Shown here piece by piece: positions 22,983-28,913 of a DNA stretch of 57,175 nt. Where the stretch lies: contig JAJYVD010000012.1 in NCBI GenBank assembly GCA_021792185.1, positions 1 through 57,175 of the forward strand. Direction: 5' to 3'. Origin of the DNA: Nitrospirota bacterium (lineage in GTDB: Bacteria; Nitrospirota; Thermodesulfovibrionia; Thermodesulfovibrionales; Dissulfurispiraceae). Numbering within the stretch: the stretch's first letter is position 1; each line of letters opens with the position of its first letter. Under the pieces are notes generated by a model. It was not told where the DNA came from, did no database searches, and saw only the letters and a list, made by a program, of their open reading frames with translations. The position numbers and the translations under genes are program-made.

Positions 22983-23046
22983 GGAGTGATGGAGAAATGG
23001 AGAGATAAATTCCAACACTCCAAAACCCCGATACTCCAATATCTCT
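22983..23046. repeat. Inverted pair of 8-bp tandem tracts encoding a lipoprotein N-terminus
   Basis: TGGAGTGA-TGGAGAAA-TGGAGAGA units face CTCCAAAA/CTCCAATA units around ATAAAT. The tracts encode the first 20 or so residues of the next protein (MMEKWRDKFQHSKTPILQ). Confidence 0.8.
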
Positions 23047-24611
23047 GTTTATTCTTTGCCGTTTGCTTCTTGCTTGGCTGCGCAAAAGAACCTGAGATCA
23101 AACATCCGAACACCATTACCATAGGTTTCCTGTCGGATGCTAAAAGGCTTCTTCCGCTTCTTGCATCCGACAGCGCTTCAGCAGAAATAACCAGCCATAT
23201 TTTTAACGGCCTCACAAAATACGACAAAGACATCAAACTGACCGGAGATCTCGCGGAATCATGGGATATAAGCCCTGACGGACTTAAAATAACATTCCAT
23301 CTCAGGAAGGGCGTTAAATGGCATGACGGCGCTGAGTTCACATCCGATGACGTAATATTTACCTATCGTACCGTAACAAACCCCAATATACCGACGCCTT
23401 ACAGCAGCATATACGGCCCTGTTCAAAAGGTAGAGGCGATTGATAGATATACTGTAAGGGTCACATACAAAGAACCCTACGCGCCTGCGCTTGAGTCATG
23501 GGGAATGGGAATCGTTCCCAAACATGCGCTCGAAGGAAAGGACTTGAAATCTCCGGAAGTCAACCGGAACCCTATAGGCACAGGGCCTTACAAGCTCAAA
23601 GAATGGGTCACAGGCCAGAAGATAGTAATTGAGGCATTCGACGATTATTTCGAGAAACGGCCTAATATAGACAGGTTCACGGCAAGAATAATACCGGACA
23701 CGGCAACGATGTTTTTGGAATTGAAATTCGGAGGCATAGACTTCATGGGATTAACGCCTCCGCAGTACAAACTTCAAGCCCAAACAGATTTCTTCAAAAA
23801 ATATTTTCAGAAATTCAGATACCCTTCATTCGGCTACACGTATCTCGGTTATAACCTTCTCAATCCTTTATTCTCGGACAAACGGATAAGGCAGGCTATC
23901 TCCCATTCCATCAACAAAAAAGAGATCATAGCGGGGGTGTTGATGAGTTACGGAACACCATGCACCGGCCCCTTCCCGCCGGAATCATGGGCGTTCAATT
24001 CCGACGTGAAAGATTACGAATACAACCCCGGCAAGGCTGAAAAACTTCTTTCGGAAGCAGGATGGCAGAAAAATCCCGAAGGAGTTCTTGAGAAAGACGG
24101 AAAAAAATTGACATTCACCGTCTTAGTGAATCAGGGAAACGAAGCGAGGCTCAAGACAGCGCAGATAATAAAGGAGCAGCTCAAAAAAATCGGGATCGAT
24201 ATGACCATTAAGGTCCTCGAATGGCAGGCCATGCTCCATGAGTTCATAGACAAAAAAAGGTTTGAGGCGGTAATTATGGGGTGGTCATTGTCGAGGGATC
24301 CGGATATTTACGACATCTGGCATTCTTCAAAGACAAAGGAAGGAGAATTCAATTTCATCTCGTATAAAAACGATGAGGTCGATAAGCTTCTTATTCAGGG
24401 CAGGCAGACATTCGACATGGAAAAGAGGAAAAAAATTTATCACAGAATACATGAAATATTAGCGGAGGAACAGCCGCAAACCTTTCTTTACGTGCCTGAC
24501 GCGCTTCCGGTTCTTCATAAGAGATTCAAAGGCGTAGAAAAAGCGCCTGTCGGCATATGGTATGACTTCATCAAATGGCATGTGCCGAAGAATAAGATGG
24601 AGTGGTATTAA
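22986..24611 (+). CDS. Oligopeptide-type ABC substrate-binding lipoprotein
   Basis: A 541-residue SBP_bac_5 protein (DppA/OppA fold) with lipobox LLGC near residue 36, then GFLSDAKRLLPLLASDSAS, LAESWDISPDGLKITFHLRKGVKWHDG and the conserved NRNPIGTGPYKLKEW. It would bind peptides or similar ligands at the outer face of the inner membrane. No permease genes follow. The charged N-terminus of its signal peptide is built from an 8-bp tandem repeat. It follows secG by nine bases. Confidence 0.9.
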   Translation: MMEKWRDKFQHSKTPILQYLCLFFAVCFLLGCAKEPEIKHPNTITIGFLSDAKRLLPLLASDSASAEITSHIFNGLTKYDKDIKLTGDLAESWDISPDGLKITFHLRKGVKWHDGAEFTSDDVIFTYRTVTNPNIPTPYSSIYGPVQKVEAIDRYTVRVTYKEPYAPALESWGMGIVPKHALEGKDLKSPEVNRNPIGTGPYKLKEWVTGQKIVIEAFDDYFEKRPNIDRFTARIIPDTATMFLELKFGGIDFMGLTPPQYKLQAQTDFFKKYFQKFRYPSFGYTYLGYNLLNPLFSDKRIRQAISHSINKKEIIAGVLMSYGTPCTGPFPPESWAFNSDVKDYEYNPGKAEKLLSEAGWQKNPEGVLEKDGKKLTFTVLVNQGNEARLKTAQIIKEQLKKIGIDMTIKVLEWQAMLHEFIDKKRFEAVIMGWSLSRDPDIYDIWHSSKTKEGEFNFISYKNDEVDKLLIQGRQTFDMEKRKKIYHRIHEILAEEQPQTFLYVPDALPVLHKRFKGVEKAPVGIWYDFIKWHVPKNKMEWY

Positions 24612-25918
24612 GCTTCTATCGTCTTCACAAAAATCGCCGAGAGGAAACCGAAAATCGTTGACATGCCGACCACCGAGCCGCCCTGCTCGAATGCCTCCGG
24701 CAGCATGGTCTCGGCTATCATAGCGAGCATAGCGCCTGCGGCAAGGCTTTCGATAAACGCAACAGTATACGGCGGCACTTCCTGAAACATAATATTCCCC
24801 AAATAAGCGCCGATGCCTGACAGCACACAAAGTAATCCCCACAATCCCATTATCTTCCAACCGGATATGCCCATTTTTTTCATGCCGATGGAACTGGACA
24901 TGGATTCAGGGAAATTTGCCAGAAATATTCCGACTATAAGGGAAAGACCTATTTTGGCACTGCCTATTGTATTGACTCCTATCACAAAAGACTCGGGCAT
25001 GCCGTCCATGAATGTTCCGATCAAAATGGCTAAAGGAGCTCCTTTATGCGCAATGTGCTCTTTGGATATCTTATATATCTCCGAGGCAGAGGGCTTATAA
25101 TCCTTTTCTTCGGTGAACCTTTCTACCTTCTCAGCCCATATTCTGGAATCTGCTTTTCTCCTTATAAGCTCAAGCCCTTTGAGATGGGCGTCGTAAAGAT
25201 TTTGCACTTCCTGTTTTAATTGTGGAGAGGCTTGAAGCAGCCTGTCAAAGTCCGATTTATGGATTTCGAGCAGCATAACATCCGTCACGGCTGTTACTGT
25301 TGCCTGTCTTACTTCATTAGTCAGGAGCGCCATTTCGCCAAAAATTTCTGAGGGCCCGAGTGTTGCAACAATTTCTCCTTGATGCGATACCTCAACGCTG
25401 CCCTTTTCGATTATATACAATTCGAATCCATCTTCGCCTTCGGTGATAATGCGCGTTCCCTGCTTAAAATTCCTTTCATGGACATGTACGACAAGAGAGT
25501 GTATCTCTTCAGGAGGCAGCGAATTGAAAAGAGGCACATGGCTCAAATATTCTATAATCTCTGCGATGCGTTTGCGTTTTAATTTTGTAGCATGTTTTGC
25601 AAGGGTAGCCGTCTTCCTTAAAAAGCCGCCTTTATTGCTTATTGCATAATTAAGCGCTACGAAAATAAAACCGCCTATGGCACAGCCAAGCCCTATAGGC
25701 CAGAAACCTCCCTGAAGCTTTTCAAGGGCTTCGGCAACCAGTTCAAGGGTAAGCGCGGCCAGCAGCGCACCCGCTCCGTAAGCCATTATGGATGCGGTCA
25801 GACGCTCTGAAGGCTTAATTAAAATGCCCACCCAAGCACCGAGGGGAAGGGAAACAGCGCTTAATATCCCGAAAAGAAACGCATAAAATGCCGCTTGGCT
25901 GAAAAATATATTTTCCAT
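24608..25918 (-). CDS. ZIP-like transporter with internal cyclic-nucleotide-binding domain
   Basis: Three membrane segments (residues about 10-90) are followed by a cNMP-binding domain (about 125-225: FKQGTRIITEGEDGFELYIIEKGSV, GEMALLTNEVRQATVTA), then at least five more segments with DGMPESFVIGV and ANFPESMSS. These two motifs stand where ZIP proteins have HNxPEG and H/ExxPEG, so the usual histidines are replaced by Asp and Asn. The arrangement suggests metal flux gated by a nucleotide or voltage-like sensor domain. Phosphate-cassette residues look partly conserved (GEMALL, RQATV). Confidence 0.75.
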   Translation of the reverse strand: MENIFFSQAAFYAFLFGILSAVSLPLGAWVGILIKPSERLTASIMAYGAGALLAALTLELVAEALEKLQGGFWPIGLGCAIGGFIFVALNYAISNKGGFLRKTATLAKHATKLKRKRIAEIIEYLSHVPLFNSLPPEEIHSLVVHVHERNFKQGTRIITEGEDGFELYIIEKGSVEVSHQGEIVATLGPSEIFGEMALLTNEVRQATVTAVTDVMLLEIHKSDFDRLLQASPQLKQEVQNLYDAHLKGLELIRRKADSRIWAEKVERFTEEKDYKPSASEIYKISKEHIAHKGAPLAILIGTFMDGMPESFVIGVNTIGSAKIGLSLIVGIFLANFPESMSSSIGMKKMGISGWKIMGLWGLLCVLSGIGAYLGNIMFQEVPPYTVAFIESLAAGAMLAMIAETMLPEAFEQGGSVVGMSTIFGFLSAIFVKTIEA

Positions 25919-27929: not shown

Positions 27930-28913
27930 ATGTCTCATCAGCTTTCAAATAAAATCACCCAATATACACTTGGCCCGCTGCCATGGGATAAAGAGCAATT
28001 AGAAAAGCTATCTTATCGTTTACCGGTCGATATAGCAGAGGCAATCAAAGAACATCCAGGATATGCGGCTCATGAAATCCTTGCAGAGCTAAAAATCACA
28101 CTCGATTTGTTTTTGGATTGTGTGCAGGATATTCTAAATACTATTGCACAATTCAGGATAGCAAGTGAAAATCCAGTTTTTTGGTACAGACCATCAGAGA
28201 GTCTTTTAGTTAATTATGAAAAAGAGATGCGCAAAGGGCTTTTTGCCTCAGCCGCAAGTGCTATAGCATTGGTTGATAATTCTCGAAGAGTTGCCCAAAA
28301 AATTGTTGTTGATTGCTATCAAAATAAGGTTGAACAGATGTTTGTAAAAGATGAGCAACATATATTCATTCAAAATCTAAGAAACTTTGTTGCACATAGA
28401 CATATTTTACAGCCAGACTGGACAGTTCATTATTCTGTTGAAGGCCGTTATGCAACTTTCAGATTGAAATCAGATGTACTGTTTCGATACAAAAAATGGG
28501 AACCACTTGCGATAAATTTTATTGAAAAGAATAAAGAAGGCATAGATATTGACATTCTTTTTTCTACCTATCGAGAAAAAGTTATTGAGTTTCACAACTG
28601 GTTCCATAGCGAAATTATAAAAGTCTCAGAACCTCAACTTTCCGACTATAGGAAGTACGAAAAATGGTTAAAACAATTCAGTTTGCAAGCAAGTTGGAAT
28701 CTTTTACTCTCAGAGGCAATAAAGCGCAACATAAACCCCTATGACTATCTTAACAGATATTTTACAAAGGACGAACTTTCAGAGATAAACTCACTACCAC
28801 ACAAGTCCCAAGCACAGGTTGATAGAATGATAGAAATACTCGATGATGTTAATGCTTGCGATGATAAAATTCGAGAGTTAGCATATAAGTTATTCGGTCT
28901 CATTAACGATTAA
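27930..28913 (+). CDS. Unrecognised AT-rich protein with a HEPN-like RNxxxH motif
   Basis: A 327-residue helical, soluble protein of no family I recognise. Residues around 152-160 read QNLRNFVAHRHI; R-N-x3-H matches the RNase motif of HEPN proteins but a single short motif is weak evidence. Its base composition is clearly more AT-rich than the exporter genes it follows by three bases, and HicAB lies just beyond, so it may be an acquired defence or stress gene. No membrane segment or signal peptide is visible. Confidence 0.7.
   Translation: MSHQLSNKITQYTLGPLPWDKEQLEKLSYRLPVDIAEAIKEHPGYAAHEILAELKITLDLFLDCVQDILNTIAQFRIASENPVFWYRPSESLLVNYEKEMRKGLFASAASAIALVDNSRRVAQKIVVDCYQNKVEQMFVKDEQHIFIQNLRNFVAHRHILQPDWTVHYSVEGRYATFRLKSDVLFRYKKWEPLAINFIEKNKEGIDIDILFSTYREKVIEFHNWFHSEIIKVSEPQLSDYRKYEKWLKQFSLQASWNLLLSEAIKRNINPYDYLNRYFTKDELSEINSLPHKSQAQVDRMIEILDDVNACDDKIRELAYKLFGLIND

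Follow-up and report, generated by a model that had tools for sequence, protein, structure and literature searches.

A ZIP-family protein with a cyclic-nucleotide-binding domain between its third and fourth membrane helices in Nitrospirota

ZIPs are widespread metal transporters, and their short-term control is poorly understood. BbZIP, the ZIP of Bordetella bronchiseptica (PDB 5tsb, 8ght, 8czj), has an 8-TM ZIP fold, in which TM1, TM4, TM5 and TM6 are described as the transport domain, which moves, and the remaining TMs as the scaffold (PMC9873690). The TM3–TM4 loop of BbZIP has ~21 residues (146–166) and is cytosolic; it is reported to fold back, to sense zinc with two histidines and to inhibit uptake (PMC10256678). 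A transporter likewise described as moving by elevator-type alternating access is the sperm Na+/H+ exchanger SLC9C1, which cAMP tunes via a cyclic-nucleotide-binding domain (CNBD). In CNBD proteins, the C-terminal helix of the domain is described as moving on cAMP binding, and the inhibition of SLC9C1 as being relieved by cAMP via the CNBD (PMC10620092).

CNBD tails on membrane proteins are already known. MFS-CNBD fusions are mentioned in PMC10710835. Further examples were CPA2-like antiporter-CNBD proteins of Rhizobium (L022, L084, and L085; by eye) and, in the genome studied here, an MMPL-CNBD protein (L002) and a BrkB-CNBD protein (L004). Cyclic-nucleotide-gated channels, for example MlotiK1 and SthK, are tetrameric K+ channels with C-terminal CNBDs.

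A stretch of 57,175 nucleotides from a Nitrospirota bacterium (contig JAJYVD010000012.1), called the window here, encodes a protein in which the CNBD, unlike in the C-terminal fusions, lies within the transport fold. Unlike SLC9C1, whose transport fold is unrelated and whose CNBD is distal, after the voltage sensor, the window protein carries the domain between scaffold and elevator. No description of a ZIP with a CNBD was found in searches of the open-access literature.

Gene layout and the ZIP membrane part

The CNBD-ZIP gene and its parts were located as follows.

24608..25918, minus strand: CNBD-ZIP gene, 436 aa, a single open reading frame from ATG to stop
25628..25918, minus strand: ZIP TM1–TM3, residues 1–97, from predicted helices and alignment with ZIPs
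25562..25627, minus strand: K/R-rich linker helix from TM3 (scaffold) to the CNBD, residues 98–119, from GGxxRK conservation and charges
25199..25561, minus strand: cyclic-nucleotide-binding domain, about residues 120–240, from PF00027, PDB match and dN/dS
25295..25342, minus strand: phosphate-binding cassette FGEMALLTNEVRQATV, residues 193–208, with Glu195 and Arg204, in agreement with canonical cassettes tabulated in PMC2246266
25049..25198, minus strand: linker helices that connect the CNBD with TM4, residues 241–290 (model helices 232–255, 259–272, and 278–292, of low confidence)
24611..25048, minus strand: ZIP TM4–TM8, residues 291–436, with DGMPES in TM4 and ANFPES in TM5, from model helices and hhalign

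An SBP_bac_5 solute-binding protein gene (22986–24611, plus strand) is convergent with the CNBD-ZIP gene, their ends overlapping by 4 bases, and an ABC ATPase gene (from 26023, plus strand) is divergent from it, ~100 bp apart. The CNBD-ZIP gene therefore looks like a separate transcription unit. No conserved gene neighbourhood was found among the loci of the window and of genomes G415, G295, and G152: the flanking genes were SBP_bac_5 and ABC in the window; DUF362, 4Fe-4S, and DUF6599 in G415; inositol phosphatase and M48 in G295; and a cyclase in G152. The source genome assembly has 2.65 Mb in 89 contigs.

The membrane part is a member of the ZIP superfamily with the 8-TM BbZIP fold. TM helices were predicted by AlphaFold2 at about residues 8–33, 38–67, and 73–96 before the insert and 294–316, 325–348, 353–378, 383–413, and 416–435 after it. 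The TM helices of the model were fairly confident (69–92 in ten-residue blocks) and the CNBD was poor (mean 64.8, pTM 0.53). The model was compared with known structures by VIA-align, and eight BbZIP entries were matched with Z 21.2–26.5 (2.2–2.8 Å, 215–242 residues), against 8.1 for the next chain; rows after BbZIP (Z ≤8.1) were not taken as relatives. The first ten ranks of a Foldseek search against the PDB were all BbZIP. Nine of the 13 rows of the model alignment were conventional ZIPs, and a model made without those rows was uninformative (pLDDT 39.8); these structure comparisons therefore presuppose the ZIP hypothesis to some extent.

Three profile comparisons, by contrast, were independent of that hypothesis. 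Profile A3, made from eight short relatives, matched BbZIP in the PDB with E 3.4e-11 to 7.6e-11 (five distinct sequences) and nothing else significantly, the next match being cathepsin S with E 0.44. The same profile matched ten conventional ZIPs at 99.4% in hhalign (E 1.5e-21, 240 columns). The profile of the five CNBD-ZIPs matched these ten at 97.2% (E 3.8e-11) over TM4–7.

The Pfam Zip score (PF02535) of the window protein was 26.9 bits, under the curated cut-off of 35.1, which is a detection threshold and not a biological trait; ZIP membership thus rests on the other evidence. Five short relatives, including L024, annotated as a ZIP family zinc transporter, scored 0–31.7 bits, all under the cut-off as well, so the Pfam model is distant from this subgroup. 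L008 of the source genome cleared the cut-off with 85.9 bits.

Cyclic-nucleotide-binding domain and metal site

PF00027 (cNMP_binding) was matched at residues 148–230 with E 3.2e-22 and a score of 78.8 bits (cut-off 27.5), which excludes a chance match. The top PDB sequence match of the window protein was cGMP-dependent protein kinase (E 5.9e-29), and bacterial CNBD channels came next. The CNBD is similar in sequence to those of MlotiK1 (2zd9, E 7.4e-16) and SthK (8vtb, E 9.7e-14). No channel domain was found in the window protein, unlike in these channels: Pfam matched no ion-channel family with E values as high as 10 allowed, the membrane part resembles BbZIP, and the protein was not classed as a cyclic-nucleotide-gated channel.

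The cassette FGEMALLTNEVRQATV has the canonical Gly-Glu and Arg and is intact by sequence. PMC2246266 gives a comparable cassette, GEIALLTGGPRTATVRA, as one of its examples for CNB domains fused to mechanosensitive channels of bacteria. The canonical Gly-Glu and Arg were present in four of the five full-length members (window, G116, G295, and G415). In the G152 protein, PF00027 was matched twice, and both cassettes, FGWMDFLTGAPHTMAA and FGGKAFITGARHTTSA, are degenerate, with Glu and Arg lost; cAMP binding has therefore probably not been kept throughout the clade. The initial annotation had placed a cNMP-binding fold after the third membrane segment of a ZIP-like protein, and it had named cassette degeneracy and a membrane part unrelated to ZIP as grounds for rejection. 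The domain was found behind the first three predicted helices, the cassette is intact in the window protein and the membrane part matches BbZIP.

The dN/dS ratios of the window protein against that of G116 were 0.098 in the CNBD, 0.195 in TM1–3, and 0.117 in TM4–8. For G295 against G415 they were 0.069 (rough, with CNBD dS >1), 0.174, and 0.150, respectively. A ratio of 0.074 was obtained for the linker helices between CNBD and TM4 (residues 241–290). With ratios of ~0.1 or less, the insert is under purifying selection and about as constrained as the transporter parts, or more. The GGxxRK motif in the linker after TM3 was kept in all five full-length members. Residues 97–124, adjoining TM3, contain eight K/R, which fits the cytosolic side.

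The metal site was mapped by alignment to PDB 5tsa and by alignments A2 and A5, with the eight binuclear-centre residues named in PMC9873690. The BbZIP residues and their equivalents are Met99 and Leu52, His177 and Asp305, Asn178 and Gly306, Glu181 and Glu309, Gln207 and Ala334, Asp208 and Asn335, Glu211 and Glu338, and Glu240 and Ser367. Two of the eight (Glu309 and Glu338, at the Glu181 and Glu211 positions) are identical to BbZIP and six are different; the window protein was therefore not filed as a GufA-type ZIP (GufA/ZupT-type). At the exit site, Asp144 and Glu276 of BbZIP are replaced by Asn90 and Thr404, and the insert stands in the place of the two loop histidines.

DGMPES (residues 305–310) and ANFPES (334–339) do differ from the HNxPEG form, as the initial annotation pointed out. 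A motif specific to the fusion was ruled out, since motifs of this type are common to short relatives without a CNBD. These relatives of ~250 aa, annotated as 'ZIP family zinc transporter' (e.g. Deinococcus L024), belong to the same subgroup, with ~33–44% identity to the window protein over TM4–8 (tblastn), and have DGIPES-type and SNxPE-type motifs; unlike the window protein, they have a short loop instead of a CNBD. The general pattern is D(G/S)xPE and NxP(E), with NVPQ in the Haladaptatus row. D305, E309, N335, and E338 were invariant in all five members and largely common to the short relatives annotated as ZIP transporters.

The putative transport site of Asp305, Glu309, Asn335, and Glu338 would offer oxygen ligands only. 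This suggests that the metal is not zinc, or not zinc alone; Mn2+ or Fe2+ would be examples. The altered specificity proposed by the initial annotation is thus reasonable from the residues, and it would be a trait of the wider subgroup rather than of the fusion. In human ZIP8, E343 is located in TM5. This acidic residue of the primary transport site is reported to bear on the preference for Zn versus Fe, Mn, and Cd (PMC10372143). Its position is different from those of the window site, and the parallel may serve as a loose analogy only.

Distribution and origin

The class was searched with profile A1 (230 genomes, E ≤ 1e-25), and 12 genomes gave matches. The full CNBD-in-ZIP architecture was found in five of the 230: G000 (the source genome of the window), G116, G295, G415, and G152. 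The G295 and G415 proteins have 465 aa each. The open frame of G152 has 621 codons, or 610 aa from the first start codon, with its two CNBDs within the same loop. In G446, 98 codons at the end of a contig matched TM1–3; this piece was left out of the five, and G446 is probably a sixth carrier. The remaining A1 matches were short ZIPs (G331, G271, G341, G225, and one in G446) and CNBD parts of other proteins (G140 and G414).

With profile A7, the architecture was found in four genomes of an even sample of the phylum (395 genomes) and in three of 150 relatives, all already among the known carriers. A single-protein search matched eight of the 395 phylum genomes at E ≤ 1e-20, four of which were short ZIPs. 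There was no match in G375, a genome of the same genus that is 88% complete. The closest named relative is a 95% identical protein of Nitrospirae bacterium GWB2_47_37. An exact-peptide pattern scan of genome contigs found only this relative (MHDU01000044); the patterns were strict, and the scan says little on other phyla.

Among 72,556 plasmid records, 229 matched the window protein and 199 the G295 protein; no match covered 80% of the query, and residues 1–112 alone as the query gave no match. The Rhizobium plasmid hits with long matches in the flanks proved to be antiporter-like, with the CNBD at the C terminus, and a Gemmatirosa match was an oxidoreductase-like protein with a CNBD (both by eye). 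Viral contigs contained short ZIPs only and no CNBD-ZIP. A scan with the CNBD alignment A4 gave no match.

In a tree of the ZIP parts (23 rows, midpoint root, long branches for GufA_L047 and GufA_L043), the five CNBD-ZIPs formed one clade with support of 99/100 within the short-ZIP group. This placement fits a single origin of the CNBD insertion.

Proposed control of transport and other readings

The insert takes the place of the BbZIP zinc-sensor loop and joins TM3, the scaffold helix that leads into it, to TM4, the elevator helix that follows it. Like BbZIP, the window protein would thus have a regulatory element in the TM3–TM4 loop, here a CNBD of ~120 residues with linkers. Cyclic-nucleotide control is therefore the best candidate mechanism, and ligand gating appears the best reading of the CNBD-ZIP. 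The protein is somewhat more probably than otherwise an elevator-type divalent-metal ZIP in which a CNBD replaces the cytosolic TM3–TM4 loop and cyclic nucleotides control transport. In the stronger form of this explanation, cAMP binding to the domain between scaffold and elevator would directly set the rate of metal uptake, and the zinc feedback sensor would have been swapped for cellular signalling; the case for and against this form is evenly balanced.

A cellular cyclase would make cAMP (or cGMP), which would be bound by the CNBD. The C-terminal helix of the CNBD would then close and pull or release TM4, in the transport domain, relative to TM3, in the scaffold. In the model, the junction consists of this helix and two linker helices, of low confidence. 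The shift of TM4 would permit or block the elevator stroke and thereby the metal flux, the second messenger taking the role held by intracellular zinc in BbZIP. As to polarity, the effect may be activation or inhibition, with a slight preference for relief of inhibition because of the analogy with SLC9C1. If true, cAMP signalling would be tied directly to metal supply and the TM3–TM4 loop would be an evolvable control point. The protein would also offer structural work a ligand-switchable ZIP, in which a soluble domain that binds the ligand connects the scaffold with the elevator.

The CNBD fold could also have been kept while sensing another ligand or nothing, as a dimerisation or docking module, so that the ZIP is regulated or stabilised without cAMP. 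The G152 protein is intact although both of its CNBDs lack the cassette Glu and Arg, PMC2246266 describes CNB domains whose cassettes are non-canonical and whose ligands are others, haem among them, and BbZIP is reported to form dimers via scaffold TMs (PMC9873690 and PMC10256678). This reading is unlikely, though it deserves attention, given the canonical cassette in the four other members and the low dN/dS of the insert. It is still less probable that the ZIP part does not transport and is a membrane receptor or transceptor, whose DGxPES/NFPES site senses metal with the CNBD as output or input. Such a role would agree with the loss of six of the eight BbZIP centre residues, including Glu240 in TM6, and with the exchanges at the exit site. 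However, the four invariant residues are largely shared with annotated ZIP transporters, and the TM parts are under purifying selection. A chance joining of two adjacent genes by an assembly or gene-call artefact has a negligible probability. The division of the source genome into 89 contigs speaks for it, but the gene is a single frame, and an artefactual fusion was ruled out by the same architecture in four other genomes at 38–95% identity.

Under the preferred explanation of cyclic-nucleotide control, a cyclase would supply the messenger. Cyclases were present in all six carriers (G446 counted) and in 165 of the 230 class genomes; the difference is not significant (~0.14 by chance). In the window and in G415, the CNBD-ZIP gene has no cyclase gene beside it, and in G295, where the contig does not cover the upstream side, there is none downstream. 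G152 has a HAMP-class III cyclase gene (488 aa) directly upstream on the same strand, with 388 bp between its end and the start of the CNBD-ZIP. The chance of such a direct neighbour is roughly 1 in 140 (19 cyclase matches, 5,500 genes assumed). Since only one locus of the five has it, the very one with degenerate cassettes, the neighbour weakly supports a link of the CNBD-ZIP with cyclic-nucleotide signalling. The source genome of the window has three PF00211 matches, two of which are CHASE2-class III cyclases. Their sequences show FSDxRGFT, DK(F/Y)IGDA, and VNLxSR, in which we see the Asp residues that bind metal, the Lys that contacts the base, and the catalytic Asn/Arg of class III cyclases.

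CNBD proteins and an unassigned ORF in the genome of the window

Besides CNBD-ZIP, an MMPL-family and a BrkB-family membrane protein of this genome carry a CNBD. Therefore, CNBDs are used on several membrane proteins in this genome.

L002 1420-3309: MMPL-family membrane protein, CNBD at the C terminus
L004 1447-2661: BrkB-family membrane protein, CNBD at the C terminus
L007 1501-1581 (C36:11595-11675): CNBD-ZIP remnant of 27 residues
Window 27930-28913: 327-aa ORF, with the ABC genes upstream

The remnant showed 85% identity to the C-terminal end of CNBD-ZIP, with the remaining gene absent there, and is probably a decayed second copy. The 327-aa ORF had no match in a Pfam search at E 0.01.

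CNBD-ZIP loci of related genomes

L080 7517-9379 (G152:C102): CNBD-ZIP whose TM3-TM4 loop holds two CNBDs in tandem
L080 5695-7158: HAMP-class III cyclase gene directly upstream
L082 2949-9922 (G415:C54): surroundings of CNBD-ZIP
L083 1496-2113 and 6295-7002 (G446:C61): one separate CNBD protein each

The cassettes of both G152 CNBDs were degenerate. Same-strand genes around the G415 CNBD-ZIP encoded three DUF362 proteins, a polyferredoxin-like 4Fe-4S protein, and a DUF6599 protein. The end of the G446 contig carries the truncated start of a probable CNBD-ZIP, and both CNBD proteins are encoded no more than about 7 kb away from it.

Short ZIP genes in IMG/VR contigs

Two IMG/VR contigs classed as viral (L041 and L042) carried short ZIP genes of the DGIPES type, one of them close to its contig edge; this DNA may be host DNA.
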